DNA of 64,000 nucleotides from Pararhodobacter aggregans. Lineage in GTDB: Bacteria > Pseudomonadota > Alphaproteobacteria > Rhodobacterales > Rhodobacteraceae. The position numbers were made by a program, and so were the translations under genes. Below are positions 14,654-60,948 of the stretch, in pieces (the first letter of the stretch is position 1; each line of letters starts with the position of its first letter). Below the pieces are notes generated by a model, which was not told where the DNA came from, did not search any database, and saw only the letters and a list, made by a program, of their open reading frames with translations. The stretch spans positions 1 through 64,000 of the forward strand of contig NZ_QDDR01000001.1 of NCBI RefSeq assembly GCF_003075525.1, written 5' to 3'.

Positions 14654-14950
14654 GGGGCCGTGTGGAAGCGGGGGGCAGCCCCCAGAGAACGCAAAAGGCG
14701 GGGGGCCAGCCCCCCGCGCCCCCCGCTCAAGGGGGTTTTCCACCCCCTTGAGAAACCCCCGAGGATATTTGAAGCGCAAAGAAGGCGGCTTAACGCCCTC
14801 TTAATCTTCATCTTTGTTCTTCAAATATCCTCGGGGGGTGAATGCCCGCAGGGCAGAGGGGGGCAGACTGCCCCCCTTCTTCGGCGCGGCAACGCCGCGC
14901 CGCTGGTCGCCCGAGGCGCCCGCGGCAGCGGGTAACGAGGGCGAAACCCC
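14654..14950. repeat. Composite palindromic 3'-end element, copy A
   Basis: The whole ftsK-rnd convergent gap. From left to right it holds a G-rich module with GCCAGCCCCCC, a stem CTCAAGGGGG...CCCCCTTGAG (14726-14752), the inverted-repeat core (14756-14837), a GGGGGGCAG-ACTGCCCCCC hairpin, CGGCGCGG-CAA-CGCCGCGCCG, and a module that read from rnd starts at its TGA (TGAGGGGTTTCGCCCTCG). The same order, inverted, occurs at 34.0-34.4 kb. Confidence 0.85.
14756..14837. repeat. 82-bp inverted-repeat core, copy A
   Basis: It begins CCCCCGAGGATATTTGAAG and ends CTTCAAATATCCTCGGGGG, with AAAGAAGGCGGCTTAACGCC in the middle. The ends are perfect inverted repeats of about 19 bp. The sequence is nearly the reverse complement of copy B (18869-18950). 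Confidence 0.9.
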
Positions 14951-16108
14951 TCAGATCTCGATGACGCGGACCTGCTGGCCCTTGGCCGCCAGCGCCAGTT
15001 CGCCGTTGCAGAGCCGCAGCGCATCCGCGCCGAAGATCTCGTGCCGCCAGCCCTTGAGGCAGGCCACATCCCGCTTGCCCGCGGCGATCTGGTCCAGGTC
15101 CGAGGTCGGCGCGATCAGCCGCTGCGCCACGCCTGCGGAATCGGCCTTGGCCTTGAGCAGCACCCTGAGCAGATCCGCCAGCGCCGGGTTGACCTGCAGC
15201 GGTTCGTCCTCGGTCGCGGCGCGCGGCCAGTCCTTGGGCCCGAGCGTGAGCGCCTGTTGCACCGCTTCGAGGATCCCGTCGGCGATCTCGCCCCGCCGCG
15301 CCTCGCGCAGCAGAAGCCGCGAGCGGCCCAGCGCCTCGATCGAATCCGGTTTGGTCGAGGCCAGTTCCAGCAGCGCGTCGTCCTTGTAGACCCGCGAGCG
15401 CGGCACGTTGCGGGTCTGGGCGTAATCCTCGCGGAACCGCGCCAGTTCCTTGACCAGCGCCATGAACTTGCCCGATTGCCCGCGGGTGCGGATCTTCTGC
15501 CAGGCGTCCTCGGGATGGGTGACATAGGTCTCGGGCGAGGTCAGCACGCCCATCTCCTCGGCCACCCAGGCGGCGCGGCCGCTTTTCTCGATGTCTTTCT
15601 TCAGGTGTTCGTAGATCTGGCGCAGGTGGGTCACATCATCCAGCGCGTAGCGCAGCTGCGCCTCGCTCAGCGGGCGCTGCGACCAGTCGGTGAAGCGCGA
15701 GGTCTTGTCGAGCGGCGCCTTGGCGATCTTCTTGACCAGCGTCTCGTAGCCGACCTGTTCGCCGAAGCCACAGACCATGGCGGCGATCTGGGTGTCAAAC
15801 AGCGGCTCGGGGATCACCCCGCCGTCGATGAAGAAGATCTCCAGATCCTGCCGCGCGGCGTGGAAGACCTTCACCACATCGGTGTTGCGCATCAGGTCCA
15901 GCAGCGGATCGAGCGACAGCCCCTCGGCCAGCGGGTCGATGACATAGGCACGCTCGGGGCCCTTGCCGGGCAGCGCCATCTGCACGAGGCAGAGCTTGGC
16001 GTAATAGGTCCGCTCGCGCAGGAACTCGGTATCGAGGGTGACGTAGGGCTCGCCCGCAGCCTCGGCGCAGAGTGCGGCAAGGGCTTCGGTGGTGGTGATG
16101 ATGTTCAT
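14951..16108 (-). CDS. rnd: Ribonuclease D
   Basis: A 3'-to-5' exonuclease of the DEDD family that trims tRNA precursors. 385 residues. The first catalytic acidic pair is in VTLDTEFLRERTYY (Asp26, Glu28), the second motif region is MRNTDVVKVFHAARQDLE, and the third is RYALDDVTHLRQIYEHL. A C-terminal HRDC-like region follows from about residue 205. It is transcribed toward ftsK and ends in composite repeat copy A. The downstream module begins at its own stop codon. Confidence 0.93.
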   Translation of the reverse strand: MNIITTTEALAALCAEAAGEPYVTLDTEFLRERTYYAKLCLVQMALPGKGPERAYVIDPLAEGLSLDPLLDLMRNTDVVKVFHAARQDLEIFFIDGGVIPEPLFDTQIAAMVCGFGEQVGYETLVKKIAKAPLDKTSRFTDWSQRPLSEAQLRYALDDVTHLRQIYEHLKKDIEKSGRAAWVAEEMGVLTSPETYVTHPEDAWQKIRTRGQSGKFMALVKELARFREDYAQTRNVPRSRVYKDDALLELASTKPDSIEALGRSRLLLREARRGEIADGILEAVQQALTLGPKDWPRAATEDEPLQVNPALADLLRVLLKAKADSAGVAQRLIAPTSDLDQIAAGKRDVACLKGWRHEIFGADALRLCNGELALAAKGQQVRVIEI

Positions 16109-16201
16109 TCGGCCTCGCAGGCGCGGGGTCGTCCCGCTGGTTCAACGGTTCTACGGGGCGTCGGGAGGAATGGAAAGGGAACGCCGCGCGGCCCCCTTCC
16201 C

Positions 16202-16651
16202 TCAGTCACGCAACTGCAACACTGCCTCGCCGCGCGTCGGACCCTGCCGCCCTTCGCCGCTGAGCCGGAAGTGCAGGGTCTCGCCCGCGCGCCGGATCTC
16301 GAAGAGCCCCTCGGCACCGTCGCCGAGGCGCAGGATTTCGCCCTGGATCCGGCCCTCGATTTCCTCCGGCAGGTCGTCATCGCCCCGGTTTTCGCCCCGG
16401 ATCAGCCCGCCGTCGGCCTCGCGCAGCAGATAGGCGAAGCTGCGCCCGCCCTGCTGGGTTGCGCAGCGGCCCTGAAAGACATGGCCGGAAAGCCGCGTGC
16501 CCTCCAGCCGGATACGGCAGCGGAAGCGTTGCGCGGGTTCACCCGGCAGGGCCAGCGTGCCCTCGCCCTGCCATTCGCCCTCGAAGGGCGCGAAGGTCTG
16601 CGCCATGGCGGGGGAGGCGAGGCTGAGGGCGATCAGGGCGGCGCGGATCAT
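16202..16651 (-). CDS. Small exported protein coupled to the MMPL transporter
   Basis: 149 residues of unknown function. Residues 1-19 form a signal peptide ending SPAMAQ, and the mature part begins TFAPFEGEWQGEGTL and is predicted beta-rich (alternating short hydrophobic strands), somewhat lipocalin-like. Two cysteines (RFRCRIRL and GRCATQQ) could pair in the periplasm. The ATG was chosen because it overlaps the stop of the upstream MMPL gene as ATGA; the longer start lies inside that gene. Coupling suggests a periplasmic partner of the exporter. Confidence 0.7.
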   Translation of the reverse strand: MIRAALIALSLASPAMAQTFAPFEGEWQGEGTLALPGEPAQRFRCRIRLEGTRLSGHVFQGRCATQQGGRSFAYLLREADGGLIRGENRGDDDLPEEIEGRIQGEILRLGDGAEGLFEIRRAGETLHFRLSGEGRQGPTRGEAVLQLRD

Positions 16652-18753
16652 TGCAGGCTCCATCGGATAAGGCCGGGCAACAGGTAGAGATCGGCGGCCA
16701 GCGCCAGCGCCACGGCCAGCGCGATCAGCCCGCCGAAAACCGCGAGCCCGGGCAGGGCCGAGGCCAGCGTCACCGCCAGCCCGGCAAAGAGGATCGTCGT
16801 GGTGGCGGCCATCGGCGGCCCGGCCTCGACCAGCGCGCGGTCGACGCGGCGGGCGGTGCTGCCCCGGGCCAGCCGCAACCGGTTCAGCAGATGCAGCGTG
16901 TCGTCCACGGCGATGCCGAAGGCCACGGTGAGGGCGATCATGTTCATGATGGTCAGTTCGCGACCCCAGAGCACCAGCCAGGCCTCGACGCCCAGGATCG
17001 GGATCAGGTTCACCACCAGCGCCAGCAGCCCCAGCCTGAGCGAGCGGTGGACCAGCGCCACCAGCAGGGTGATGGCGAGGATCGTCGAATAGAGACCCCA
17101 GCGCAGGCTTTCGACGATCCGCGGCCCCTCGGTCAACAGGGCGTATCCCGGGCCGACGATCTGCGTCACCCCGGCAAGACCGGCCTCGGCAAGGCGGGCC
17201 TCCAGCGCGGCCAGCGCCTGATCGGCGCGCACGTCGGCGGCGGCAATGGGCAGCTGTACCGGCAGGGCATGGGCGCCGCCATCGCGTGAGGCCATGCGCG
17301 CCAGCATCGCCTCGCCAGCCGCGCCCCGGGCGAAGGCGTCGCTGCCATAGAGCACGCGGGCGGCGGCGCGGATCCTGTCCCGCGGCGCGGCCGGGTCATC
17401 CTCGACCACCACCAGCATGCGGTCGGCGCCCAGCCCCTCGGCGTCCATGATGGCCAGCGCCTCGGTCACCGGGGCGCCGCGCGGCAGGTAATCGGCATAG
17501 CGGAACCCCAGGTCCGAGCGGCTCTGCAGCGCCCAGAGCCCGGCCAGCACCAGCGCCGCCAGCAGCGCGACCAGCCGCCCGTGGCGCGCCAGCGCCCGCG
17601 CCCCGGGCACAAGGCCGCGGAAAAGCCGCGGCGCCCGGGTTCCGGCCCGTGGCCGGTCCAGAAGCCGCATCAGCACCGGCGTCATCAGCAGGACCGAGGC
17701 GAGGCACAGCGCCATGCCCAACCCGCCCGCCCAGGCCATCCGGTTCAGCGAGGGGGAATCGGGCAGGGCGAGCGAGGCGAAGGCAAGGATCGTGGTGAAG
17801 GAGGTGAGGGCGGCCGCGGGCGCGGTCTCGGCCAGGGCCCGGGCCAGCGCCGGGCGCCGCGCCATGCCGCGGCGCAGGGCGTGGATCGCGGCATGATAGA
17901 CATGCACGGAATCCGAGAAGGCCAGCACGATCAGCACCACCGGCAGGGATCCCATCAACGGGTCGATGGGCGTGCCGCTGGCGCCGAGCACGCCGAAGAA
18001 CCACACCAGCCCGGTGATCGGCGGCAGGGCGATCACCGCCACCGCCCGGGCCGAGCGGAACAGGATCGCGGTGAAGGCGAGGCAGATCAGCGTCGCCAGC
18101 GGCACCAGCAGGCCCAGGTCATGGATCAGCTCGCGGGCAATGGCGCGCTGCACGGCGAGGAGGCCGACGATCTCGGTCTCGAGGGCGGGGGTGGTGGCCG
18201 CGGCCTCCGCCAGACGCGCGGCGAAGGCATCGCCGCCCTGACCGCGCTCGGGCGCCACGACGATCAGCGTGGCGGTGAGGCCCTCGTTGACCAGCTGCGC
18301 GGCCAGCGGGCTCTCCCGCCGGATCGTGGCGAGGCGCTCGGCGGGCGGCAGATCCGCCAGTTCCGGCCCCGAAAGCCAGGCGCCCTCGCGCCCCGGGGCC
18401 GGCAGGCCGGGCAGCGAGATCACCTGCTGCACGCCCTCGACGAAGTGCAGGTCGAGGACCAGATCGTCGAGCGCGGCAAGCCCCGCCTCACTGGCCAGAT
18501 CGGGGGCGCGGACCAGAAGCACCTCCTCGGCGGTGAGGGGGCCGAACCGCGCGCTGTAGCGGTCGATGGCGCGCGCGCCCTCCGTGCCGGTGCCGATCAG
18601 CCCCGAGAGGTCGACCGCCACCCGGATCTGCGTCGCCTGCCAGAGCGCGAGCAGGGTGACGAGGACCAGCGCCAGCCCGGGCCAGAGCGGACGGGCCAGC
18701 AGCCGGGCGAAGGCCCGCACCAGCAGGGAAGCGGAGGGCGCGGGCTGTTGCAT
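16648..18753 (-). CDS. MMPL/RND-family transporter
   Basis: A 701-residue inner-membrane protein of the RND superfamily (hydrophobe/lipid exporter type). The duplicated layout is visible: one membrane segment near residue 25, a periplasmic loop to about 200, a block of five helices, another single helix near 390, a second loop, and a final block of five. GVEAWLVLWGRELTIMNMIALTVAFGIAVDDTLH carries the proton-relay Asp pair typical of MMPL proteins. An ATG was chosen over an upstream TTG. The substrate is unknown. It is coupled by 4 bp to the exported 149-residue protein. Confidence 0.85.
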   Translation of the reverse strand: MQQPAPSASLLVRAFARLLARPLWPGLALVLVTLLALWQATQIRVAVDLSGLIGTGTEGARAIDRYSARFGPLTAEEVLLVRAPDLASEAGLAALDDLVLDLHFVEGVQQVISLPGLPAPGREGAWLSGPELADLPPAERLATIRRESPLAAQLVNEGLTATLIVVAPERGQGGDAFAARLAEAAATTPALETEIVGLLAVQRAIARELIHDLGLLVPLATLICLAFTAILFRSARAVAVIALPPITGLVWFFGVLGASGTPIDPLMGSLPVVLIVLAFSDSVHVYHAAIHALRRGMARRPALARALAETAPAAALTSFTTILAFASLALPDSPSLNRMAWAGGLGMALCLASVLLMTPVLMRLLDRPRAGTRAPRLFRGLVPGARALARHGRLVALLAALVLAGLWALQSRSDLGFRYADYLPRGAPVTEALAIMDAEGLGADRMLVVVEDDPAAPRDRIRAAARVLYGSDAFARGAAGEAMLARMASRDGGAHALPVQLPIAAADVRADQALAALEARLAEAGLAGVTQIVGPGYALLTEGPRIVESLRWGLYSTILAITLLVALVHRSLRLGLLALVVNLIPILGVEAWLVLWGRELTIMNMIALTVAFGIAVDDTLHLLNRLRLARGSTARRVDRALVEAGPPMAATTTILFAGLAVTLASALPGLAVFGGLIALAVALALAADLYLLPGLIRWSLQ

Positions 18754-18805
18754 GAGCGGCAAGCTAGCACAGGGCGGCCGGGGAGCAAGCGCGAGGGCGG
18801 GCGAC

Positions 18806-19070
18806 AGGTGGCGGGGGCCAGCCCCCCGCGCCCCCCGCCAAAGGGGGCCCTCGGGCCCCCTTTGGAAACCCCCGAGGATATTTGGAGAACAAAGATGAAG
18901 GTTGAGAGGGCGTTAAGCCGCCTTCTTTGCGCTCCAAATATCCTCGGGGGTGAGGGCCGCCCGGACGAGGCGCCGGTGGCGCGTCGTCAGGCCCGAACGC
19001 CCGGAGCGCAAGCGTAGGGCCGGACCAGGCCGTCAGGCCAAGAGGGGGGCAGACGGCCCCCCTTCTTCCC
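18806..19070. repeat. Composite palindromic 3'-end element, copy B
   Basis: It fills the gap between the MMPL start and the SDR stop. It carries GGGGGCCAGCCCCCC, a 13-bp stem CCAAAGGGGGCCC-TC-GGGCCCCCTTTGG (18838-18865), the core (18869-18950), an unrelated-looking stretch of about 90 bp, and GGGGGGCAG-ACGGCCCCCCTTCTTCCC next to the SDR stop codon. Here it is not at a convergent junction, but it still follows a gene's 3' end (the SDR). Confidence 0.8.
18869..18950. repeat. 82-bp inverted-repeat core, copy B
   Basis: It begins CCCCCGAGGATATTTGGAG and ends CTCCAAATATCCTCGGGGG, with GAGGGCGTTAAGCCGCCTTC between. It is in opposite orientation to copies A, C and D, judged by the asymmetric centre. 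Confidence 0.9.
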
Positions 19071-19853
19071 TTACAGCGACCATTTCGGCGTGAAGGGCAG
19101 TTGCGCGGACAGCGCGCCGTCCACGGCCAGAACCTGCCCGTTCACATAGCTCGCAGCCTCCGAGGCGAGGAAAGCCACGGCCTCGGCGATCTCCTCGGCG
19201 CGGCCGCCGCGGCGCAGCGGGTTCAGCTGGCCGATGCGGTCTTCCTTGCCCCGGGCGCGGGCGTCGTCGAAGAGCGCGGCGGTCATCGGCGTGTCGATGA
19301 GGCCGGGCGCCACGCCGTTCACCCGGATCCCGGTGCCGCTCAGGGCCATGGCGGTGGTCTGCACCAGATTGGCCACCCCGGCCTTGGAGGCCGAATAGGG
19401 GATCGGCCCGGCCCCGGCCCTGAGCCCCGCGACCGAGGCGGTGCAGACGATGGCCCCGCCGCGCTGCATATGCGGCAAGGCAGTGCGGATGGCGATCCAG
19501 GGGCCCAGCAGGTTGATGCGCAGCACCTCCATGAAATCGGCGCTCGGCGTGTCGAGCCGGGGCAGCAGCCCGCCCGTCACCCCGGCATTGGCGAAGAGCA
19601 CATCGATCCCGCCGAAGCCCGAGACCGCATGGCCGACGATCGCCTCGACCCCGGCATCGGTGGCGCAATCGGTGACCAGCGCGCTGGCCTCGGTGCCTTC
19701 GGCCCGGGCCAGGGCGGCGGTTTCCTCGACCCCTTCCTGCACATCGGCCAGTACCAGCCGCGCGCCGCGCCGGGCGAGCAGCAGGGCCGTGGCGCGGCCG
19801 ATGCCACCGGCGGCGCCGGTGATGATCGCGGTCTTGCCGGTGAAATCGCTCAT
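19071..19853 (-). CDS. SDR-family oxidoreductase
   Basis: A 260-residue classical short-chain dehydrogenase. Cofactor motif TGAAGGIG (12-19), NAG at 89-91, and catalytic Ser140, Tyr153 and Lys157 (PYSASK). VNGVAPGLIDTP and the C-terminal SYVNGQVLAVDGAL complete the fold. Asp37 after the second strand (LVLADVQE) suggests NAD+ preference. The start MSDFTGKTAI was chosen for its match to the family and its GAGATGA context. It lies downstream of the acyl-CoA dehydrogenase on the same strand (63 bp apart), so a role in acyl-CoA or hydroxyacid oxidation is plausible. Confidence 0.85.
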   Translation of the reverse strand: MSDFTGKTAIITGAAGGIGRATALLLARRGARLVLADVQEGVEETAALARAEGTEASALVTDCATDAGVEAIVGHAVSGFGGIDVLFANAGVTGGLLPRLDTPSADFMEVLRINLLGPWIAIRTALPHMQRGGAIVCTASVAGLRAGAGPIPYSASKAGVANLVQTTAMALSGTGIRVNGVAPGLIDTPMTAALFDDARARGKEDRIGQLNPLRRGGRAEEIAEAVAFLASEAASYVNGQVLAVDGALSAQLPFTPKWSL

Positions 19854-19916
19854 CTCATCCCTCCCTCGATGCCGGGGGTCGCCCCCCCGCATAATGTGCC
19901 GCGCGTTGCCGGGCCT

Positions 19917-21188: not shown

Positions 21189-21239
21189 GGGATCCTCCTG
21201 TGCTGGCGGCAGCCTAGAGAAACCCACAGCGTCTGGCAA

Positions 21240-21254: not shown

Positions 21255-21309
21255 CGGCTTGACGATGGCCCGCATCGCCGCCATCCTCGGGCAAACGCGG
21301 GAGGGGATC

Positions 21310-22943: not shown

Positions 22944-23041
22944 CCTTTCCGAAACCCGCCTTCTTTGCGCGGCAAATATCCTCCAGGGGGGCCGGGGGGA
23001 TGGAAAATCCCCCCGGGGCCGCCACCGGGCGCGCGCTTTGT
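22944..23041. repeat. Half-core palindromic element, copy F
   Basis: CGCCTTCTTTGCGCGGCAAATATCCTCCAGGGGG (read in pieces, 22957-22990) is one arm of the core, followed by a GGGGGGATGGAAAATCCCCCC hairpin. It fills the convergent junction between gntR and the FAD oxidoreductase gene. Confidence 0.75.
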
Positions 23042-31779: not shown

Positions 31780-31975
31780 GCGAGGGGTTTCGCCCTCGGC
31801 CCCCGCTGTCGCGGGCGCCTCGGGCGACCAGCGGCGCCGCGTCCCGCGGCGCCGCAGAAGGGGGGCGCTGCCCCCCTCTTTGCTGCGCAAATTCACCCCC
31901 CGGGATATTTGCAGAACGAAGAGGGAGGCGGGGTGCGCCCGGGTTCGGGGGCGGATGCTCAGGATCGGCGTGCGG
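31780..31975. repeat. Composite palindromic element with half core, copy E
   Basis: Just after the trxB stop comes GAGGGGTTTCGCCCTCGGCCC, then GCGCCTCGGGCGACC, CGGCGCCGCG...CGCGGCGCCG, GGGGGGCGCTGCCCCCC and a half core CCCCCCGGGATATTTGCAG (31895-31913). The second arm of the core is missing. It fills the convergent trxB-Nudix gap. Confidence 0.8.
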
Positions 31976-32500: not shown

Positions 32501-33256
32501 ATGCGCGCCTTAGCCCTGATCGTTTGCCTCATGCCCCTGCCTGCCAAAGCCGAATGCGTGGTCCTGTTGCACGGGCTGGCGCGGTCGGATGCCTCGATGC
32601 TGGTCTTGCAGGAAGTGCTGAGCTTCCACGGCTACCGCGTGGTGAACGAGACCTACCCGTCCGAGGATGCGCCGATCGGCGATCTGGTGCGCTATGTCGC
32701 GCGCTCGGCCGCGCTCTGCGGGCAAGAGCGGATGCATTTCGTCACCCATTCGCTGGGCGGCATCCTGGTCCGCGCCTGGCTGGCGCAGGGCCATCCGCCG
32801 AACCTGGGCCGGGTGGTGATGCTGGCGCCGCCCAATCATGGGTCCGAGATCGTCGATGCGCTGCGCTCGAACGAGGTGGCCCATGATGTCGGCACCTTCT
32901 TCAACGGTCCGGCAATGGCACAGCTGGGCACCGATCCGAATTCGGTGCCGAACACCCTGCCGCCGGTGGATTTCGACCTGGGCGTGATCGCGGGCGACCT
33001 GCCGATCAATCCGATCGGGGCGGCGGTGATCGGCGAGCGTTCGGATGGCACCGTCTCGGTCGCCTCGACCCGGGTCGAGGGGATGCGGGACCATATCACC
33101 ATCCCGGCCTCGCATACGCTGATCATGATGAACCCGATTGCCATGGCCGAGGTGCTGGAATTCCTCCGGAACGGCGTTTTTGACCACGGCATCACCTATG
33201 TCGGCGCCTTGCGCAAACTGGCCCGGCGCTGGCCGGCAATGGAGGCTGAGCCATGA
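32501..33256 (+). CDS. Exported alpha/beta hydrolase (lipase-like)
   Basis: 251 residues. Residues 1-17 (MRALALIVCLMPLPAKA) are a signal peptide. The oxyanion strand VVLLHGLARSD, the nucleophile elbow FVTHSLGGILV (Ser84), an Asp in SDGTVSVAST and His in ITIPASHTLIM give a likely catalytic triad. This pattern fits periplasmic esterase/lipase-like proteins. CTATAC 16 bp before the start may be part of the promoter. It overlaps the next gene by 4 bp (ATGA). Confidence 0.85.
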   Translation: MRALALIVCLMPLPAKAECVVLLHGLARSDASMLVLQEVLSFHGYRVVNETYPSEDAPIGDLVRYVARSAALCGQERMHFVTHSLGGILVRAWLAQGHPPNLGRVVMLAPPNHGSEIVDALRSNEVAHDVGTFFNGPAMAQLGTDPNSVPNTLPPVDFDLGVIAGDLPINPIGAAVIGERSDGTVSVASTRVEGMRDHITIPASHTLIMMNPIAMAEVLEFLRNGVFDHGITYVGALRKLARRWPAMEAEP

Positions 33257-33975
33257 CGATCCGCATTGCCATGTGGTCGGGACCGCGCAACCTGTCGACG
33301 GCGCTGATGTATGCCTTCGCCGCCCGGGGCGATTGCGCGGTGACCGACGAGCCGTTCTACGCCGCCTATCTGGCGATGACCGGGCTTGACCATCCGATGC
33401 GGGAGGCGGTGCTGTCGAGCCAGCCGCAGGAGCCCGAAGCGGTGGCAGAGGCGCTGGCGGGCGAGGTGCCGGAGGGCAAGCCGATCTGGTATCAGAAACA
33501 CATGACCCAGCACATGCTGGAGGGCGTGCCGCGCGACTGGATGGGCGCGTGCCGCCACGCCTTTCTGATCCGTCATCCGGCCCGGGTTGTGGCCTCCTAT
33601 TCCAAGAAGCGCGAGGAGCCGGTGCTGGCGGATCTGGGCTTCGTGCAACAGGCGGAACTCTTCGACCGGGTGGCGCAGGCCGAGGGCGTGGCGCCGCCGG
33701 TGATCGATTCGACCGCGCTCAGGGCGGCGCCCGAGGCGCGGCTCAAGGCGCTGTGCGAGGCGCTGGGCATCGGCTGGACGCCGCGGATGCTGCGCTGGGA
33801 GGCGGGGCCGAAGCCCTATGACGGGATCTGGGCGCCGGTCTGGTATCACGCGGTCCATGCCTCGACCGGGTTCGAGGCGGCCGAGGGGCCCTTGCCCGAG
33901 CTGCCGCCCGCCTATGCCCGGCTGGCCGAGGCGGCGCTGCCCGCCTACGAGGCGCTGGCGGAGCACGCGCTCTAG
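33253..33975 (+). CDS. P-loop sulfotransferase-like protein
   Basis: 240 residues. The N-terminal MTIRIAMWSGPRNLSTALMYAF contains a modified 5'-phosphosulfate-binding loop (SGPRNLST), and RHAFLIRHPARVVASYSKK is the 3'-phosphate-binding strand/helix seen in sulfotransferases. Similar proteins in Rhodobacteraceae are annotated as sulfotransferase-like; the activity is unproven. It is coupled by ATGA to the exported hydrolase and ends in composite repeat copy C. Confidence 0.75.
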   Translation: MTIRIAMWSGPRNLSTALMYAFAARGDCAVTDEPFYAAYLAMTGLDHPMREAVLSSQPQEPEAVAEALAGEVPEGKPIWYQKHMTQHMLEGVPRDWMGACRHAFLIRHPARVVASYSKKREEPVLADLGFVQQAELFDRVAQAEGVAPPVIDSTALRAAPEARLKALCEALGIGWTPRMLRWEAGPKPYDGIWAPVWYHAVHASTGFEAAEGPLPELPPAYARLAEAALPAYEALAEHAL

Positions 33976-34380
33976 GAGGGGTTTCGCCCTCGTTGCCCGC
34001 TGGCGCAGGCGCCTCGGGCGACCAACGGCGCGGCGTGCCGCCGCGCCGAAGAAAGGGGGGCCGTCTGCCCCCCTCTGCCCTGCGGGCATTCACCCCCCGA
34101 GGATATTTGAAGAACGAAGAAGGCGGCTTAACGCCCTCTTAACTTGCATCTTTGTTCTCTAAATATCCTCGGGGGTTTCCAAAGGGGGCCCGAGGGTCCC
34201 CTTTGGCGGGGGGTGAGCGGCGTCTCGGAAACGCGCCAGTGGCGCGTTTCAGCCGCGAACGCCGCGCCCGTGGCGCGGCCGGGAGCCGAGGGGGCTGGCC
34301 CCCCGCTCCTTCCCGGCCCGGCTCAAGCGCCAGAGCATCTCGGCCGGTCGTCCCTCAATATCGTCAGCGCCAAGCAGCCG
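33976..34380. repeat. Composite palindromic 3'-end element, copy C
   Basis: 405 bp with no gene, between convergent genes. Order: GAGGGGTTTCGCCCTCGTTG next to the stop, GCGCCTCGGGCGACC, CGGCGCGGCGTGCCGCCGCG, GGGGGGCCGTCTGCCCCCC, GCCCTGCGGGC, the core (34094-34175), CCAAAGGGGGCCCGAGGGTC with CCCTTTGG, then a stretch with repeated GCGCC/GGCGC blocks and GGGGGCTGGCCCCCC. Copy D at 60.7 kb follows the same order almost base for base. Confidence 0.85.
34094..34175. repeat. 82-bp inverted-repeat core, copy C
   Basis: CCCCCGAGGATATTTGAAG to CTCTAAATATCCTCGGGGG, with AAGGCGGCTTAACGCCCTCTT between. One base in the right arm (CTAAATATCC instead of CAAATATCC) breaks the terminal symmetry. Confidence 0.9.
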
Positions 34381-35847
34381 TTACCAGGCGTTGACCCGGT
34401 CCAGATCCGGCCGCAGCTCGGCGGCGAAGTCGAGCGCCTCGGGACGGGGGCGGGTGACGAGCGAGACGAGGACGAAGAGCCCGAGGCTCAGGCCCCCGAC
34501 GCTCAGCGCCAGCACCGGGTTGAACACGCTGACGCCCTGCACCATCGCCATCCAGACCGCGAGCGCGGCGCCGCCGAGGATCGAGGCCAGCGCCCCGGCC
34601 GCCGTCGCCCGGTGCCAGAAGAAGGCGCCGATGGTGGCGGGCACGGTGACCATCAGCCCGGCGGCCGAGAGGGCGGCGAGCTGGTCGACCACGGTCGCCT
34701 TCTGCACCGCGAAGAGGCTGGCGAACAGGATCACCAGGATCACCACCACCCGGCCGGTCAGGATCTGTGCCCGTGGCGGGGCGTCGGTCATCACGTCGCG
34801 CGCCACCATCGCCGCCAGGGTCAGGGCGATGGAATCGAGGGTCGAGACCGCCGCAGCGAGGATGCCGAGGATCAGCAGCACCGCCACCGGTGCCGGAATC
34901 GCGCCCGAGGTCAGCAGCGCGGGCGTCGCGGTCGCCGTATTCTCGAGCCCCGGGGCCAGTTGCAGCGCGGCAAAGCCCCAGATCACCGCGATCAGCGTGA
35001 AGGCGAGGCCGAAGCCCAGCACCCAGAAGATCATCCGCCGCATCGCCGCCATATCCTTCAGGATGAAGAGCCGCTGGCTGACCTGCGGGTTCGAGATGGC
35101 GAAGAAGAACCAGGGCAGCGACAGCGCGGTGAAGGTGCCGAGGCTCCAGAGCCCCGGGCCGGGGACCGAGAGATGGCTGCCGTGCGTCTCCAGCGTGGCC
35201 TGCGCGAAGGCGCCCCAGCCCCCCAGCGCCGCCACGGCGAAGAGGATGGCCAGCACGGCCGAGCCCATCATCACCACCGCCTGCACCGCATCGGTCCAGG
35301 CGACCGAGCGGATGCCCGCGAAAAGCGTCCAGAGCGCGGCCAGCAGCGCGCCGGTCGCTACCGCCTGGGTCAGCGTGATCTCGCCCCCGGTGACGCCCGA
35401 CAGCAGCAGCCCGATGCCCGCCATCTGCGTCGTGCAATAGGGCATCAGGAACACCAGCGCGACCAGCGCCGCCGCCCGGGCGACCCAGCGCGAGCCATAG
35501 CGCGCGCCCAGCATCTCGGCCGGAGAGATGAAGCCCCAGCGTTTCGCAGCCAGCCAGAAGCGGGGGGCGAAGATCACCAGGAGGCCGAGGCCCGCGAAAT
35601 AGATCAGCTCGAAGCCCAGCGCGCCGATGCCGCCGCGGTAGGTGAGGCCGGTGAGCACCACCAGCATGAAGGCCGAATAGGTGGTGGCCGCATAGGAAAG
35701 GCCTGCCACCATGCCGCCGAAGCGACGGTTGCCGAGGTAATAATCCTCGGCGGTGCCGGTGTTTTCGCGCGTGGCGCGCCAGGCGATGAGCAGGCCGAAA
35801 CCGGCGAAACCGGCGATGGCGCTCCAGATCAGGATGGGGGAAAGCAT
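34381..35847 (-). CDS. Sodium:solute symporter family protein
   Basis: A 488-residue SSS-family permease with about 13 hydrophobic helices, opening MLSPILIWSAIAGFAGFG. TAEDYYLGNRRFGGMVAGLS and the sodium-site helix with SYAATTYSAFMLVVLTGL resemble pantothenate/proline-type carriers, and GFISPAEMLGARYGSRW is the signature loop. The start was fixed by a TGATG overlap with the upstream 62-residue membrane protein and GGAGGG before it. The substrate is unknown. The presumed promoter is at 36125-36153. Confidence 0.88.
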   Translation of the reverse strand: MLSPILIWSAIAGFAGFGLLIAWRATRENTGTAEDYYLGNRRFGGMVAGLSYAATTYSAFMLVVLTGLTYRGGIGALGFELIYFAGLGLLVIFAPRFWLAAKRWGFISPAEMLGARYGSRWVARAAALVALVFLMPYCTTQMAGIGLLLSGVTGGEITLTQAVATGALLAALWTLFAGIRSVAWTDAVQAVVMMGSAVLAILFAVAALGGWGAFAQATLETHGSHLSVPGPGLWSLGTFTALSLPWFFFAISNPQVSQRLFILKDMAAMRRMIFWVLGFGLAFTLIAVIWGFAALQLAPGLENTATATPALLTSGAIPAPVAVLLILGILAAAVSTLDSIALTLAAMVARDVMTDAPPRAQILTGRVVVILVILFASLFAVQKATVVDQLAALSAAGLMVTVPATIGAFFWHRATAAGALASILGGAALAVWMAMVQGVSVFNPVLALSVGGLSLGLFVLVSLVTRPRPEALDFAAELRPDLDRVNAW

Positions 35848-36035
35848 CAGCGGTCCCTCCATCCGGCCGCGCCCAGCGCGATCAACACGATGACGGCCAG
35901 CCCGAAGCCACCCCAGAAGAGCGCGATGCTCCAGCCGATACTGCCCGCCAGCGGCCCGTAGGGGACCGCCGCCCCGAGGAACACCAGCACCGCCAGCGCC
36001 CCCAGCCATGCGGCAAAGCCGCTCCGTCCCGTCAT
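35847..36035 (-). CDS. Small membrane protein, symporter partner
   Basis: 62 residues with two hydrophobic helices (FAAWLGALAVLVFLGAAVPY and IALFWGGFGLAVIVLIALG). Small two-helix proteins like this often precede SSS permeases in bacteria and may be an accessory subunit. AGGGGAGAAG before the ATG and the 1-bp overlap with the symporter show it is translated and coupled. Family assignment is uncertain. Confidence 0.7.
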   Translation of the reverse strand: MTGRSGFAAWLGALAVLVFLGAAVPYGPLAGSIGWSIALFWGGFGLAVIVLIALGAAGWRDR

Positions 36036-49230: not shown

Positions 49231-49402
49231 AAAAGAACAATCTTTGTTCCCCAAATATCCTCGGGGGATTTTCAAGGGGGCAGACGGCCCCCTTGAAGCG
49301 GGGGGCCCGGGGGGCGGCAGCCCCCCGCCTTCCGAGTCACCTGGGGCGGCAGCCCCCCGCCTTCGCGAATCGTGCGGGGCGCCAACCCCCGCGCTTGCCC
49401 GC
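49231..49402. repeat. Half-core palindromic element with GC hairpins, copy G
   Basis: One core arm ATCTTTGTTCCCCAAATATCCTCGGGGG (read in pieces, to 49267) is followed by a TTCAAGGGGG-N7-CCCCCTTGAA stem (49271-49297), and CGGCAGCCCCCCGCCTT occurs twice (near 49314 and 49342), suggesting a small internal duplication. It lies between dprA and the end of tldD, that is, at the tldD 3' end. Confidence 0.75.
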
Positions 49403-50857
<1,455 letters not shown>

Positions 50858-54683: not shown

Positions 54684-54709
54684 GGCCCATCCCCTTGCTG
54701 AACCGGGAT

Positions 54710-54730
54710 CGGGGGGCTATGTGCCCCCCG
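54710..54730 (+). terminator. Hairpin between coxC and surf1
   Basis: CGGGGGGC-TATGT-GCCCCCCG, an 8-bp stem followed by TCTCTATTC. The weak U-tract suggests partial termination or mRNA 3'-end protection rather than full separation of surf1 from the cox genes. Confidence 0.55.
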
Positions 54731-54783
54731 TCTCTATTCGGCGCCTCTCTCTTCGGGGCATCCCTCATCAGGCGGAGCGAAAC

Positions 54784-55464: not shown

Positions 55465-55474
55465 GGATTTCTCG

Positions 55475-56863
55475 ATGCAGTATATCTCGACCCGCGGATC
55501 GGCCCCGGTCCTGACCTTTGAACAGGCGATGTTGACCGGGTTGGCGCGTGACGGCGGGCTTTACGTGCCCGAGTCGGTGCCGGTGATGACCGAGGCCGAG
55601 ATCGCCGCTTTGGCCGGTCTGCCCTATGAGGAGATCGCCTTCCGCGTCATGCGTCCTTTCATCGGCGAGACCTTCACCGATGCCGAATTCAAGGCGCTGA
55701 TCGCCAAGGCCTATGCCGGTTTCGGCCATGCCGCCCGGGCGCCCCTGAAGCAGCTGGGCCCCAACCATTTCCTGCTGGAGCTGTTCCACGGCCCGACGCT
55801 GGCCTTCAAGGATTTCGCCATGCAGCTGATCGGTCAGCTGTTCCAGGCGGCGCTGGGTCGGTCCGGGCAACGGGTGACCATCGTCGGCGCGACCTCGGGC
55901 GATACCGGCTCGGCGGCGATCGAGGCGTTCCGGGGCCTGTCGAACGTCGATGTGTTCATCCTCTACCCGCATGGCCGGGTGTCCGAGGTGCAGCGCCGGC
56001 AGATGACGACGCCTGCCGACGCCAATGTCCATGCGCTGGCTGTCGATGGCGATTTCGACACCTGCCAGGGCCTGCTCAAGGACATGTTCAACGATTTCGC
56101 CTTCCGCGACCGGGTCGGTCTGGCGGGGGTGAACAGCATCAACTGGGCCCGCGTTCTGGCGCAGGTCGTCTATTACTTCAGCGCCGCCGTGTCCTTGGGC
56201 GCGCCGCACCGGGCCGTCGATTTCACCGTGCCCACGGGCAATTTCGGCGACATCTTCGCCGGCTACATCGCCCGCCAGATGGGTCTGCCCATCGGCAAGC
56301 TGGTGATCGCGACGAACCAGAACGACATTCTTCATCGCTGCCTGACGACCGGCGTTTACCAGACTGAAAGCGTTCTGCCCTCCCTATCGCCCAGTATGGA
56401 TATCCAGGTCAGCTCCAATTTCGAACGGGTCCTCTTCGACGCCTATGGCCGCGACGGCGCCGCCGTGGCGCAGCTGATGAACGAACTGAAAGGCGACGGG
56501 GCCTTTACCGTGAGCCAGGGCCCGCTGGAGATGCTGCGCGACACCTTCGCCTCGGGCCGCGTGTCCGAGGAGGAGACGAGCGCCACCATCGCCCGCACGC
56601 TGAAAGCCTCGGCCGAGCTGCTCTGCCCGCATTCGGCGGTCGGCGTGGCGGTGGCCGAGCAGAACCTCGGCGCCAACCCGATGGTGACGCTGGCCACCGC
56701 CCACCCGGCCAAGTTCCCCGCCGCGGTCGAGGGGGCGACCGGCATCCACCCGGCCCTGCCGCCGCGCATGGCCGACCTGTTCGACCGGCCCGAAAGGGTG
56801 ACGCGGATGACGGGCGAGTTGCAGGCCATCGAGGCGCTGATCCTCGAAAGGACGGGCGCCTGA
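55475..56863 (+). CDS. thrC: Threonine synthase
   Basis: Converts O-phosphohomoserine to threonine with PLP. 462 residues starting MQYISTRGSAPVLTFEQAML, with catalytic Lys112 in FHGPTLAFKDFAMQLIGQ and phosphate loop VGATSGDTGSAAIEAF. Its C-terminal stop overlaps the M16 peptidase start by 1 bp. It follows surf1 after 10 bp, a gene order I associate with Rhodobacteraceae. Confidence 0.95.
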   Translation: MQYISTRGSAPVLTFEQAMLTGLARDGGLYVPESVPVMTEAEIAALAGLPYEEIAFRVMRPFIGETFTDAEFKALIAKAYAGFGHAARAPLKQLGPNHFLLELFHGPTLAFKDFAMQLIGQLFQAALGRSGQRVTIVGATSGDTGSAAIEAFRGLSNVDVFILYPHGRVSEVQRRQMTTPADANVHALAVDGDFDTCQGLLKDMFNDFAFRDRVGLAGVNSINWARVLAQVVYYFSAAVSLGAPHRAVDFTVPTGNFGDIFAGYIARQMGLPIGKLVIATNQNDILHRCLTTGVYQTESVLPSLSPSMDIQVSSNFERVLFDAYGRDGAAVAQLMNELKGDGAFTVSQGPLEMLRDTFASGRVSEEETSATIARTLKASAELLCPHSAVGVAVAEQNLGANPMVTLATAHPAKFPAAVEGATGIHPALPPRMADLFDRPERVTRMTGELQAIEALILERTGA

Positions 56864-58122
56864 TGCACCGGATCACCACGCTTTCCAACGGGTTCCGCAT
56901 CGTCTCCGAACCCATGCCCGGCCTCGCCTCGGCGGCGGTCGGCATCTGGGTCATGGCCGGCGCCCGGCATGAACAGGCCGAACAGAACGGCATCGCCCAT
57001 TTCCTCGAACACATGGCGTTCAAGGGGACGGCGCGCCGCACGGCCCTGCAGATCGCCGAGGAGATCGAGGATGTGGGCGGCTATATCAACGCCTATACCT
57101 CGCGCGAGATGACCGCCTATTACGCCCGCGTGCTGGAGGCCGATGTGCCCCTGGCGCTGGACGTGATCGCCGATATCGTGCTGAACCCCGCCTTCGACAA
57201 ACGCGAGATCGAGGTCGAGCGCCATGTCATCCTGCAGGAGATCGGTCAGGCGGCGGACACGCCCGATGACGTGATCTTCGACTGGCTGCAGGAGGCGAGC
57301 TATCCCGACCAGCCGCTGGGCCGTCCGATCCTCGGCCCTGCCGACCGGATTGCCAAATACAACGCCAAGGACCTCAAGCGCTTCGTGCAGGGGCATTACG
57401 GGCCCGGGCAGATGATCCTGGCGGCGGCCGGGGCGGTGCATCACGACGCGTTGGTGAAGATGGCCGAGGAATTCTTCGGCCACCTGCCCGCGCTCGCCAT
57501 GCCGGTGGCCGAACCCGCCCGTTTCCAGTGCAACGAACGGCGCGAGATCAAGGATCTGGAACAGGCGCATTTCGCCCTGGCCATCGAAGGCCCGGCGTTC
57601 CGCGACCCCGACCTCTTCACCGCGCAGATCTTCGCCGGGGCGATGGGCGGCGGCATGTCCTCGCGCCTGTTCCAGAAGCTGCGCGAGGAGCGGGGGCTGT
57701 GCTACACCACCTTCGCGCAGGCCGGGGCGCATGACGATACCGGCTCGATCACCGTCTATGCCGGGACCGGGGCCAGCGACATCAAGGATCTGGCGAACCT
57801 GACCATCGACGAATTCCGCCGCGCGACCGAGGACATGACCGAGGTCGAGATCGCGCGCTCGCGCACCCAGATGAAGGCGGGCCTGCTGATGGGGCTGGAG
57901 AGCCCCTCCAGCCGGGCCGAGCGTCTGGCACGGCTGCTGGCGATCTGGGACCGGGTGCCGGACCTGTCGGAAACGGTGGAGCGGATCGACGCCGTGAACC
58001 TCGACGCGATCAAGGCCTATGCCGAGAAACTCGCCTCGGACGCCCGGATCTCGATGGCGCTGTACGGCCCCGTGGATCGGGCGCCGACGCTGGATGCGCT
58101 GAGGGAAAGGCTGGTGGCGTGA
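56863..58122 (+). CDS. M16 family zinc metallopeptidase
   Basis: A 419-residue pitrilysin/mitochondrial-processing-peptidase-like enzyme. The inverted zinc motif is HFLEH (His46-His50), with the third ligand Glu about 75 residues later in the VERHVILQEIGQ region. A second inactive half follows, with GGGMSSRLFQKLREERGLCY, the conserved C-terminal block. It begins at a TGATG overlap with thrC and ends with the same overlap to the acetyltransferase gene. Likely periplasmic or cytosolic peptide degradation; no signal peptide seen. Confidence 0.92.
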   Translation: MHRITTLSNGFRIVSEPMPGLASAAVGIWVMAGARHEQAEQNGIAHFLEHMAFKGTARRTALQIAEEIEDVGGYINAYTSREMTAYYARVLEADVPLALDVIADIVLNPAFDKREIEVERHVILQEIGQAADTPDDVIFDWLQEASYPDQPLGRPILGPADRIAKYNAKDLKRFVQGHYGPGQMILAAAGAVHHDALVKMAEEFFGHLPALAMPVAEPARFQCNERREIKDLEQAHFALAIEGPAFRDPDLFTAQIFAGAMGGGMSSRLFQKLREERGLCYTTFAQAGAHDDTGSITVYAGTGASDIKDLANLTIDEFRRATEDMTEVEIARSRTQMKAGLLMGLESPSSRAERLARLLAIWDRVPDLSETVERIDAVNLDAIKAYAEKLASDARISMALYGPVDRAPTLDALRERLVA

Positions 58123-58718
58123 TGGCCGGGTTCCTGCTGGCATCGAAGAAAAGATTCCGGCTGGATACCGAACGTCTGCAGTTGCGCCTGCCGGAGCATA
58201 CGGATTTCCGCATGTGGGCGGCGCTGCGCGAATCCTCGGCCAGTTTTCTGGTCCCGTGGGAACCCACCTGGTCCGACGACCACCTGTCGCGCCGCGCCTT
58301 CACCGGCCGCGTGCAATGGGCGGCGCGGGTGCGCCAGCAGGGGACCGGGCTGCCGCTGTTCCTGATCCGGCGCGACGACAGCCAGCTGGTCGGGGCGATC
58401 ACGCTCGACAACATCCGCCGCGGCCCGGCGCAGGCGGGAACGGTCGGCTATTGGATCGGCCAGCCCTTCGCCCGCCATGGCTATATGCGCGAGGCGCTGC
58501 GCGCGCTGGTGCATCACGCCTTCACCGAGCTGGACCTGAGCCGGATCGAAGCCGCCTGCCTGCCGGAAAACGCCGCCTCGCGCGCGGTGCTGGAAAAGAC
58601 CGGCTTCAAATACGAGGGCGTGGCGCAGAGCTATCTGCAGATCAACGGCCGCTGGCGGAACCATGTGCTCTATGCCAACCTGCGGGGCGACCGGCGGGGG
58701 CGGACGGATGTCGGCTGA
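58122..58718 (+). CDS. rimJ: RimJ/RimL-type GNAT acetyltransferase
   Basis: 198 residues. LDTERLQLRLPEHTDFRMW is the GNAT N-terminal part, VGYWIGQPFARHGYMREALRALVHHAF carries the acetyl-CoA-binding loop (RHGYMREA), and EAACLPENAASRAVLEKTGF the C-terminal motif B. Proteins with this layout resemble RimJ, which acetylates ribosomal protein S5 N-termini; the target here is not proven. The start was set at the TGATG overlap with the peptidase rather than a GTG 3 bp earlier. Confidence 0.85.
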   Translation: MAGFLLASKKRFRLDTERLQLRLPEHTDFRMWAALRESSASFLVPWEPTWSDDHLSRRAFTGRVQWAARVRQQGTGLPLFLIRRDDSQLVGAITLDNIRRGPAQAGTVGYWIGQPFARHGYMREALRALVHHAFTELDLSRIEAACLPENAASRAVLEKTGFKYEGVAQSYLQINGRWRNHVLYANLRGDRRGRTDVG

Positions 58719-59250
58719 GCCGCGCATCCTGTTCCTCAGAGGGGTGAACGTCGGCACCAGCCGCAAGCTGCCGATGGCCGATCTGCGGGCCCTGCTGGCG
58801 GGGCTGGGGCTGACCGGCGTCACCACCCATATCCAGAGCGGCAACGCCGTGTTCCGTGACCCCCAGCGGCGGGCGGATCTGGCGGGCCGGGTCTTGGACG
58901 CGATCGGCGCCGCCTTCCCCTTCCGCCCCGAGGCGCTGGTCCTGGACCTGCCCGCGCTGGAGGGCGTGCTGGCCGCCAATCCCTATGCCACGATCGAGGA
59001 TCCCTCGCGGGTCCAGATCGGCTTTCTGGCGGCCGGAGGCGCGGCCGATACCGAAAGGCTGGCCGCGCTGGCGGCGCCGGGCGAGGGCTGGCACCTGACC
59101 GAGGCCGCGCTCTATCTGCATCTGCCGTGGGGCAGCGGCCGCTCGAAACTCGCCGCCGGGGCGGAAAAGGCGGTCAGGACACCGATGACGATGCGCAACC
59201 GGCGCGTGGCCGAGGCCGTGGCGGCGCTGGCGAGGGAGATGACATGCTGA
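58708..59250 (+). CDS. DUF1697 family protein
   Basis: 180 residues beginning with the diagnostic LFLRGVNVGTSRKLPMADLR, then VTTHIQSGNAVF and the C-terminal MTMRNRRVAEAVAALA. Function is unknown in this widespread family. It overlaps the GNAT gene by 11 bp and the next gene by 7 bp, so it is part of the same operon. Confidence 0.88.
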   Translation: MSAEPRILFLRGVNVGTSRKLPMADLRALLAGLGLTGVTTHIQSGNAVFRDPQRRADLAGRVLDAIGAAFPFRPEALVLDLPALEGVLAANPYATIEDPSRVQIGFLAAGGAADTERLAALAAPGEGWHLTEAALYLHLPWGSGRSKLAAGAEKAVRTPMTMRNRRVAEAVAALAREMTC

Positions 59251-60656
59251 ACCCCTGCGACCCCGCTTTCCTTCAGGCGCTGGAGGCGCAGCTGCCTCCG
59301 GGCGTGCTGCGCGCCCCCGAGGACCGCTATCTGACGGAACTCCGCGGCCGCTACCGCGGGCAGGCGGGCGCCGTGGCCTGCCCGGGTTCGGTCGAAGAGG
59401 TGGCGTCAATCCTGAAGGCCGCTCAGGCCGCGCGGGTGGGCGTGGTGCCCTATGCCGGCGGCACCGGGCTGGTCGCGGGGCAGGTGATGCCCGAGGGGCC
59501 GCTGCCGCTGGTCCTGTCGGTCGAGCGGCTGAACCGGATCCGCAGCGTGGAGCCCCTGGGCAATGTGCTGGTGGCCGAGGCGGGCTGCATCCTGACCGAG
59601 GTGCAGGCGGCGGCCGAGGGGGCGGAGCGGCTTTTCCCGATGTCGCTGGGCTCCGAGGGCTCGGCTCGGATCGGCGGGCTGCTGGGGACCAACGCCGGCG
59701 GCACGGGCGTCTTGCGCTACGGCACGATGCGGGAACTGGCGCTGGGGCTCGAGGTGGTGCTGGCCGACGGACGGGTGATCCACGGGCTGAAACGGCTGCG
59801 CAAGAACAACATGGGCTATGACCTCAGGCATCTGATGATCGGGTCCGAGGGCACGCTGGGCGTAATCACGGCAGCCGCCCTCAGGCTCTTCCCCCGGCCG
59901 GCCCGCACCGGCGCCGCGCTGATCGTCGTGCCCTCGCCCGAGGCGGCGCTGAGGCTCCTGGCGCTGGCCCAGGCGCGGCTGGGCGAGGGTGTCTCGGGCT
60001 TCGAGCTGATCGGCGGGCAGGGGCTGCATTTCCTGGCCGAGGCGCTGCCGCAGATCCGCCAACCCTTCGCCGAGCCGCCCGAGTGGCTGGTGCTGGTCGA
60101 TCTGGGGCTGGTGGCGGCGCTTGATCCGGCGGCGGAGCTGGAGGGCCTTTTCGAGGCGGCGGTAGAAGCTGATCTCGCGTCCGATGGCGTCATCGCCGGC
60201 AGCGAGGCGCAGCGCGCCGCCTTCTGGCACCTGCGCGAGGCGATCCCCGAGGCCAACCGCAAGATCGGCGCCGTGGCCTCGCACGATGTGTCGCTACCGC
60301 TGGCGGCGCTGCCCGCCTTCATCGCCGAAGCGGGGGCGGCACTGGCCGATCTGGGCGACCTGCGGGTCAATTGCTTCGGCCATGTCGGCGACGGCAACCT
60401 GCATTACAACATCTTCCCGGCGCCGGGGCGCAAGCGGGCGGAATACGACGGGCTGCGGGACCGGGTGACCCAGACGGTGCACGATCTGGTGCACGGCTTC
60501 GGCGGCTCGGTCAGCGCCGAGCACGGGGTGGGACGGCTGAAGACCGGGGATCTGGAGCGCTACGTCGATCCGGTGGCGGTCTCGGCGATGCGGTCGATCA
60601 AGGCGGCGCTGGACCCGGCGGGGATCCTGAACCCGGGCGCGGTGCTGAAAGGCTGA
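59244..60656 (+). CDS. FAD-linked oxidase (D-2-hydroxyacid dehydrogenase type)
   Basis: 470 residues. A PCMH-type FAD-binding domain (VVPYAGGTGLVAGQVMPEGP, about residues 67-86, and LFPMSLGSEGSARIGGLLG) is followed by a C-terminal cap with NCFGHVGDGNLHYNIFP, whose histidines bind metal in D-2-hydroxyglutarate and D-lactate dehydrogenases, and AEHGVGRLKTGDLERYVDP. It resembles the D-2-hydroxyglutarate dehydrogenase group; the exact substrate is uncertain. It ends at composite repeat copy D, which begins at its TGA. Confidence 0.87.
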   Translation: MLNPCDPAFLQALEAQLPPGVLRAPEDRYLTELRGRYRGQAGAVACPGSVEEVASILKAAQAARVGVVPYAGGTGLVAGQVMPEGPLPLVLSVERLNRIRSVEPLGNVLVAEAGCILTEVQAAAEGAERLFPMSLGSEGSARIGGLLGTNAGGTGVLRYGTMRELALGLEVVLADGRVIHGLKRLRKNNMGYDLRHLMIGSEGTLGVITAAALRLFPRPARTGAALIVVPSPEAALRLLALAQARLGEGVSGFELIGGQGLHFLAEALPQIRQPFAEPPEWLVLVDLGLVAALDPAAELEGLFEAAVEADLASDGVIAGSEAQRAAFWHLREAIPEANRKIGAVASHDVSLPLAALPAFIAEAGAALADLGDLRVNCFGHVGDGNLHYNIFPAPGRKRAEYDGLRDRVTQTVHDLVHGFGGSVSAEHGVGRLKTGDLERYVDPVAVSAMRSIKAALDPAGILNPGAVLKG

Positions 60657-60948
60657 GGGGTTTCGCCCTCGTTGCCCGCTGTCGCGTGCGCCGAGTCCCT
60701 AGAGACGAAATGGGGGCGACCAGCGGCGCGGCGTGCCGCCGCGCCGAAGAAGGGGGGCCGTCTGCCCCCCTCTGCCCTGCGGGCATTCACCCCCCGAGGA
60801 TATTTGAGGAACGAAGATGGGGCTTGATGCCCCCTTAACGCTTATCTTTGTTCTCCAAATATCCTCGGGGGTTTCCAAAGGGGGCCCGAGGGTCCCCTTT
60901 GGCGGGCGGGGGCGGGGGGCTGGCCCCCCGCTTCTTCCCGCGCAGCGC
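60657..60948. repeat. Composite palindromic 3'-end element, copy D
   Basis: 292 bp without a gene. It begins with the stop-adjacent module GGGGTTTCGCCCTCGTTG, continues GCGCGGCGTGCCGCCGCGCC, GGGGGGCCGTCTGCCCCCC and GCCCTGCGGGC, then the core, then CCAAAGGGGGCCCGAGGGTC with CCCTTTGG and GGGGGGCTGGCCCCCC. A short insert GAGTCCCTAGAGACGAAATG separates it from copy C's sequence near 60691. Confidence 0.85.
60791..60871. repeat. 81-bp inverted-repeat core, copy D
   Basis: CCCCCGAGGATATTTGAGG to CTCCAAATATCCTCGGGGG. The centre (GGGGCTTGATGCCCCCTTAA) differs from copies A-C while keeping dyad symmetry, as expected if base-pairing rather than sequence is maintained. Confidence 0.9.

Follow-up and report, generated by a model that had tools for sequence, protein, structure and literature searches.

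A mosaic of half modules and hairpins at gene 3' ends of Pararhodobacter aggregans, probably homogenised by exchange between copies

Repetitive extragenic palindromic (REP) sequences and bacterial interspersed mosaic elements (BIMEs) have a proposed role in transcript ending or protection, and BIMEs are bound by gyrase, IHF or Pol I. Gene conversion was reportedly proposed for REP exchange by Higgins et al. in 1988. In the present study we analysed a repeat family in the first 64,000 nucleotides of contig 1 of the Pararhodobacter aggregans genome (5.08 Mb, handle G000; other genomes are likewise given by G-numbers), a stretch hereafter called the window, which contains four palindromes (copies A to D, listed below) and three half copies. 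We consider it fairly probable that the family is a BIME- or REPIN-like mosaic of gene 3' ends which is homogenised by ectopic exchange and probably serves as a two-way 3'-end element. REPINs are inverted REP doublets that are tied to the genes of REP-associated tyrosine transposases (RAYTs) and in which compensatory changes are common, according to the parts of the source on which we draw (PMC3116915). The family shares with BIME and REP of Escherichia coli, as portrayed in the portion of the description used here (PMC2817692), the extragenic mosaic of small palindromic modules, the alternating orientation and the high copy number. It differs from them in that its conserved half is not itself palindromic, that it carries lineage-specific words and that its genome has no Y1_Tnp match; moreover, no likeness to REP sequences was seen by eye, no search having been made.

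The unit that repeats is the half together with its hairpin and not the 82-bp core that the sequence-only reading had regarded as the element. The half of about 22-30 nt reads GGATATTT-NNR-G[AA/CG]C-RAAGATG, with GAAC or GCGC as its word, and a GC-rich hairpin lies before it. The pattern GGATATTTNNNGNRCRAAG has 271 matches in the genome (133+138) and none in the control. Likewise, the exact 16-bp end of the palindromes, whose genome-wide count had been suggested as a check, occurs 92 times in 5.08 Mb as opposed to zero times in the reversed control. Doublets with exact arms number 25 genome-wide (control 0). Their 50 arms, read inward, have in common GGATATTTG-nn-G[AA or CG]C-[A/G]AAGA-TG, followed by a weaker GGTTAA, the first nine arm bases being fixed by the search itself.

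The position weight matrix (PWM) scan, the hairpin search and the placement statistics cover bases 1-812000 of contig 1 (812 kb). Here 71 strong halves, defined by a PWM score of at least 20 bits, were found and none in the reversed sequence; a looser list with a threshold of at least 8 bits comprises 80 matches. The strong halves form 24 doublets and 23 singles, one of which (567624) appears by eye to be a doublet with a decayed second arm. The palindrome is thus two half modules placed tail to tail, with their starts 43-47 nt apart in 23 of the 24 doublets and 138 nt apart in the remaining one. An 82-bp length constraint, as had been proposed, does not hold beyond this lineage: the span from TATTT to AAATA is 62 bp in copy A and about 45-193 bp in other genera (pairs taken by eye among the matches listed), which suggests that 82 bp is particular to the own lineage. 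The motif also has a second, less common form, GCGTATTT-nnR-GCAGAATGA, with 6 copies in the 812 kb (control 0), for example near 395205, 515692 and 538426 of contig 1 outside the window. At 173405 and 492089 of contig 1 the AAAGATG of the motif extends into the start codon called for the gene that follows.

A stem of at least 7 bp is present within 75 nt upstream of 70 of the 71 strong halves, compared with 10 of 71 shuffled upstream stretches. The gap between hairpin and GGATATTT measures 1-29 nt and amounts to 8-11 nt in 42 of the 70 halves. The distance from the end of the best stem to GGATATTT is 1-12 nt in 47 halves and 20-29 nt in 23, where a smaller inverted repeat often lies in between (by eye). 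Several stem types recur, including CCAAAGG..CCTTTGG, CTCAAGG..CCTTGAG, TTCAAGG..CCTTGAA and CCGGGGG..CCCCCGG, and the modules return in both orientations with several of these hairpin types, as in a composite mosaic. Since the recurring stem types differ in their letters, pairing of the hairpin appears to be maintained. The stems were, however, what was searched for, and they therefore provide no unbiased covariation test; a MAFFT alignment of the hairpins, whose loops are of unequal length, was not structure-consistent.

The arms of the doublets behave differently. The symmetric though changed centre of copy D had been taken as a sign of selection for base-pairing, but no covariation between arms is seen across the 25 doublets: at variable positions compensatory changes do not exceed what is expected when arms are mixed. 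Matches within a doublet were 11 observed versus 8.6 expected at position 10, 16 versus 14.6 at position 11 and 16 versus 15.9 at position 13. At positions 21-24 Watson-Crick matches fall below expectation, and matches of the G-T type lie above it at position 22 (2 versus 1.3) and position 23 (7 versus 3.6). A base-paired core is therefore rejected, as the arms pair no better than unrelated arms would, and the dyad symmetry reflects two copies of one conserved sequence.

Most modules are found in intergenic regions with one or more gene 3' ends, and above all in convergent ones. This was determined with our own, uncurated gene calls (788 genes, 90.5% coding) for intergenic regions of at least 60 bp, where halves occur in 28 of 59 convergent regions, compared with 16 of 219 tandem and 1 of 114 divergent ones (Fisher test for convergent versus rest, 2.7e-15). 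When the count is restricted to regions of at least 150 bp, the corresponding values are 24/36, 14/90 and 1/54. Only 1 of the 71 strong halves falls outside intergenic regions of at least 60 bp, and 6 of the 80 looser matches, 3 of them strong halves, overlap a called gene. The bias towards 3' ends together with the hairpins suggests that transcripts arriving from either side are ended or protected here.

This placement speaks against the view that the halves are uptake sequences, promoter pairs or CtrA sites. Uptake signals are expected largely within genes and promoters in divergent regions, of which 1 in 114 holds a half. Support for such a role comes from the TTAA-N7-TTAA present in the centres of copies A and C, which resembles the CtrA consensus. 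In addition, the dialects and inverted pairs resemble the short genome-specific words and inverted pairs of the Neisseriaceae DNA uptake sequences (DUS/USS), in what we have used of that literature; unlike those, 70 of the 71 strong halves are intergenic. Taken together, we regard these readings as highly improbable.

Conservation of the places was assessed by orthology with one close relative, G130 (513 reciprocal best hits to contig 1 with a median protein identity of 95.2%; identity at 93681 fourfold sites, 0.797), and with the more distant G136. G130 carries an element at all 24 syntenic regions that hold a strong element in P. aggregans. Nineteen of them are recognised by the pattern (3 with one half of two) and five as a variant dialect, GCGTATTT-nnR-GCAAAGTGA and similar, or as a decayed copy. 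At several sites where P. aggregans holds the main form, G130 has a form of the same kind as the second motif form described above. One-sided elements in this comparison are weak or variant matches only, namely 395205, 515692, 492858 and 539937 in P. aggregans and 211311 and 259345 in G130. In G123 one comparable region with an element was available, which retains one half of two, and few regions of G120, G121, G129, G122 and G136 are syntenic with P. aggregans.

While the places are common to both genomes, their contents appear to be exchanged module by module and the centre can be inverted. The hairpin type is replaced at shared sites, for example at 18753 and 492089, and words switch between the two genomes. 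Word identity at orthologous halves (83/104) is not clearly above that under shuffled orthology (79.8 +/- 4.0). The NNR bases are identical at 39 of 78 orthologous positions in 26 half pairs, compared with 38.0 +/- 3.4 after shuffling. Even in the 10 of these 26 pairs that were chosen for an upstream identity of at least 22/25 (245/250 in total), NNR agrees at 13 of 30 positions, where about 24 would be expected at the fourfold rate. Among eight doublet centres that were compared, 2 are inverted, 5 forward and 1 cannot be oriented. The centre of copy A matches G130 at 29/30 positions when inverted and at 16/30 when forward, and the 40 nt upstream of its left half are identical in both genomes. 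For the doublet at 591881 the values are 98/124 inverted and 72/124 forward; this doublet (591881-592204 of contig 1) has an unusually long centre of 122 bp. Shared places combined with unstable letters fit an element that is kept by selection while its contents are exchanged among copies.

A different explanation would be a non-autonomous mobile palindrome of the REPIN type or a miniature inverted-repeat transposable element (MITE), which transposes as an 82-bp doublet and leaves halves as decayed remnants. The 25 doublets, several of which share common centres (sub-families by eye), and their extragenic placement agree with it. As in REPINs, there are inverted doublets of near-constant spacing with singlets besides, and the 66 bp between the inverted 16-mer starts of copy A come near the 71 bp of the SBW25 GI REPINs given in the consulted part of the source (PMC3116915). 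Moreover, 2 of 26 regions shared with G136 are one-sided. Against it, neither the P. aggregans genome nor G130 has a Y1_Tnp (RAYT) match, the arms lack the compensatory changes, no strong site is empty in G130, and hairpins and words are replaced at one and the same site. Besides, doublets are not significantly better conserved than singlets (39.6 versus 37.7 bits, p 0.19, 48 and 23 halves). We therefore consider a mobile palindrome quite unlikely. The sequence-only reading had described a REP/MITE-like spreading palindrome, and what endures of this is a dispersed, non-coding, extragenic and palindrome-forming repeat of REP/BIME-like anatomy, without the pairing selection and the 82-bp unit. 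Active spreading found no support either, as the full occupancy in G130 comes near the fixed orthologous placement which that reading had itself named as evidence to the contrary. As to the empty orthologous sites that were to be sought, there were none among the 24 strong sites in G130, and at larger distance 2 of the 26 regions shared with G136 are one-sided. Matches to PF01797 occur in 2 of the 18 genomes of the genus, namely G128, which has 48 own-form halves, and G129, which has none. The Y1_Tnp matches of G129 lie on contig 35 at 63425-63682.

Within the genus, the own form is found in 11 of 18 genomes (P. aggregans included) at 1 to 270 copies. In a set of 120 genomes with one per genus of the family, the own pattern is present in 7, two of them with a single match. 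A loose form of the motif, TATTT-N6..9-RAAGA, exceeds its reversed control (p<1e-4) in 53 of these 120 genera and in 1 of 95 genomes sampled class-wide, one genome of this sample belonging to the same family. By a cruder rule (threefold excess, at least 15 copies) the numbers are 58/120 and 7/95, and the median ratio to the control is 4.0 in the family as opposed to 1.24 in the class. Between the conserved flanks, genomes have specific middles: AGCA in G093; CAAC and AACA in G010; ACCC and AAGA in G092; CCAA, AAGC and AAGA in G053; ACGAG and GCCA in G027 (by eye, among the matches listed). Full doublets were present in 58 named stretches. The titles of 45 give Rhodobacteraceae, Gemmobacter, Rhodobacter, Pararhodobacter or Frigidibacter, and those of the others Proteobacteria bacterium RHODO2 (11), bacterium (1) and Novosphingobium (1); from these titles the family of the compared genomes was taken to be the Rhodobacteraceae.

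A family-wide frame TATTT-NNR-word-RAAGA whose words differ per genome could also indicate a pure protein-binding or terminator signal, with a lineage-specific word that co-evolves with a trans-acting factor and no copying between sites. The placement at 3' ends would suit this as well, and NN is free between fixed flanks as in a gapped binding site. However, one genome can hold two or more words side by side, and a given locus may carry different words in two relatives; in addition, entire hairpin modules have been substituted and centres flipped, which point mutation would not produce. This renders a pure signal unlikely in our view.

We thus return to the mosaic of gene 3' ends. Selection would maintain an element at these ends. 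Hairpins, words and NNR bases may be swapped among the few hundred copies by ectopic recombination or gene conversion, or else by template switching at the palindrome; such exchange would keep a few words per genome. The most likely job would be that of a two-way 3'-end element which ends or trims the transcripts that approach it from both sides. By analogy, it may act like the enterobacterial BIME, the hairpins supplying its structured part. Least well explained is the randomised NNR triplet, which either short-tract exchange or cutting and rejoining at that point would give; the sample is small. On a more speculative and decidedly unlikely account, the half-sites would be dispersed exchange sites of an unrecognised, RAYT-free recombination or processing system of the Rhodobacteraceae, in which DNA would be cut or switched at NNR, thereby randomising these bases, swapping hairpin modules and flipping the centre, while the genome-specific word read by a co-evolving factor would be kept.

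Several observations weigh against the mosaic reading or parts of it. The orthology test comes from one relative, probably a metagenome-assembled genome, and the exchange is read from sequence patterns. Convergent regions without the element are 0.729 identical to their counterparts and those with it 0.737; since element-free regions diverge equally, fast change alone is no proof of exchange. The centre of the doublet at 18753 is too altered to be oriented (22/30 when forward and 20/30 when inverted, with at most 21 after shuffling), and among the 26 regions shared with G136 one element is specific to G136 and one to P. aggregans. The bias towards 3' ends is weaker elsewhere, with 11 convergent, 15 tandem and 4 divergent positions among 30 intergenic loose matches. 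These derive from stretches of G093, G092, G010, G136, G120 and G121, with 3 further matches in called genes; the G117 stretches have no intergenic loose match and one in a called gene, and those of G129 have none. The G093, G092, G010 and G117 stretches were mostly selected around known matches. Single halves in tandem regions run along the gene in 7 cases (3 of which overlap a called gene) and opposite to it in 5, 567624 being left out, so there is no strict sense-strand rule. The termination role is a prediction from placement and hairpins. A hairpin with a T run is not clearly partnered with the element, being present in 12 of the 28 convergent regions that hold the element and in 9 of the 31 that lack it.

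Intrinsic bidirectional terminators likewise have GC hairpins between convergent genes. Unlike in these, no T run stands right behind the module hairpin, where instead, after the gap mentioned above, the long conserved motif follows. A classical T-run terminator was dismissed, as it showed no clear association with the element in convergent regions.

With regard to its wider meaning, the family offers a countable case of extragenic repeats that keep their positions in two related species but undergo rewriting of the sequence at these positions, centre inversion and word switching included, and this in a genome that lacks the usual REP transposase. The place at which an element is retained (function) is separated from the way in which its letters spread (exchange), and both become testable. 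If the job at 3' ends is true, the elements would mark transcript ends in Rhodobacteraceae, which is relevant to annotation and engineering.

In the window, the 16-bp end with up to 3 mismatches has 11 matches, compared with a mean of 0.51 and a maximum of 3 in 100 shuffles. The four inverted-repeat cores of 82, 82, 82 and 81 bp were confirmed on the sequence, as were the reverse orientation of copy B relative to copy A and the three half copies, whose 16-mer matches lie at 22973-22988, 31896-31911 and 49252-49267. In copy C one arm terminates in TTTA instead of TTTG. The features are as follows.

14756-14837, no strand: core of copy A, two halves tail to tail, in a convergent region between an ftsK-like gene (11255-14653, +) and an RNase D-like exonuclease/HRDC gene (14951-16108, -)
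14763-14784, +: left half-site of copy A, word GCGC, PWM 38.1 bits
14809-14830, -: right half-site of copy A, word GAAC, PWM 46.1 bits
14726-14752, +: hairpin adjoining the left half of copy A, from the stem search
14857-14877, -: hairpin of the right half of copy A, from the stem search
18869-18950, no strand: core of copy B, opposite orientation, in a tandem region between an SDR-like gene (19071-19853, -) and an MMPL-like gene (16648-18753, -)
18876-18897, +: left half-site of copy B, word GAAC, from the PWM scan
18922-18943, -: right half-site of copy B, word GCGC, from the PWM scan
18838-18865, +: left hairpin of copy B, CCAAAGG type, with another hairpin type at the same place in G130
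18964-18988, -: right hairpin of copy B, from the stem search
34094-34175, no strand: core of copy C, in a convergent region between a sulfotransferase-like gene (33253-33975, +) and an SSF symporter gene (34381-35862, -)
34101-34122, +: left half-site of copy C, from the PWM scan
34147-34168, -: right half-site of copy C, from the PWM scan
34052-34076, +: left hairpin of copy C, from the stem search
34179-34206, -: right hairpin of copy C, from the stem search
60791-60871, no strand: core of copy D, in a convergent region between an FAD-linked oxidase gene (59244-60656, +) and a FolB gene (60949-61854, -)
60798-60819, +: left half-site of copy D, from the PWM scan
60843-60864, -: right half-site of copy D, from the PWM scan
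60751-60771, +: left hairpin of copy D, from the stem search
60875-60902, -: right hairpin of copy D, from the stem search
22960-22981, -: single half, word GCGC, in a convergent region, hairpin 22992-23016
31903-31924, +: single half in a convergent region, hairpin 31859-31877
49239-49260, -: single half in a tandem region, behind the stop of the gene 49403-50857 (-), hairpin 49271-49297

In line with the sequence-only reading, which had noted no transposase nearby, none was named by Pfam among the eight genes flanking the four cores (E up to 1e-10), the other genes of the window being unscanned. A known RNA family was rejected for the cores, which gave no Rfam match at the gathering score. 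Similarly, a phage origin of copy A was discarded with no match among phages at E 0.01, and a plasmid origin with one 31-nt match of 93.8% to a Pelagovum plasmid (E 0.01). A description of the element was not found among the open-licence papers listed for the topic, as judged by titles and the starts of abstracts, subscription journals being outside this scope; on the same criterion, none of the listed papers containing the motif strings deals with it. A survey of GTAG/CGTC repeats does not mention Rhodobacter, Paracoccus, Roseobacter or Silicibacter in its main text (PMC3733652), and the main text of a recent REP survey names neither Rhodobacter nor Paracoccus (PMC12306157). A Rhodobacterales motif, HRC-8-4, has been described near cco operons in the section of the work consulted (PMC8632094). 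The sole Rfam match in the window lies elsewhere, at 2780-2846, and is the L2-Alphaproteobacteria ribosomal protein leader (RF03142) directly upstream of a 279-aa gene (2849-3688). Finally, a further recurring stretch of the type GGGGTTTCGCCCTCGTT..CTCGGGCGACC was seen by eye at stop codons at several sites, in the window at about 14890-14950 and at other gene ends.

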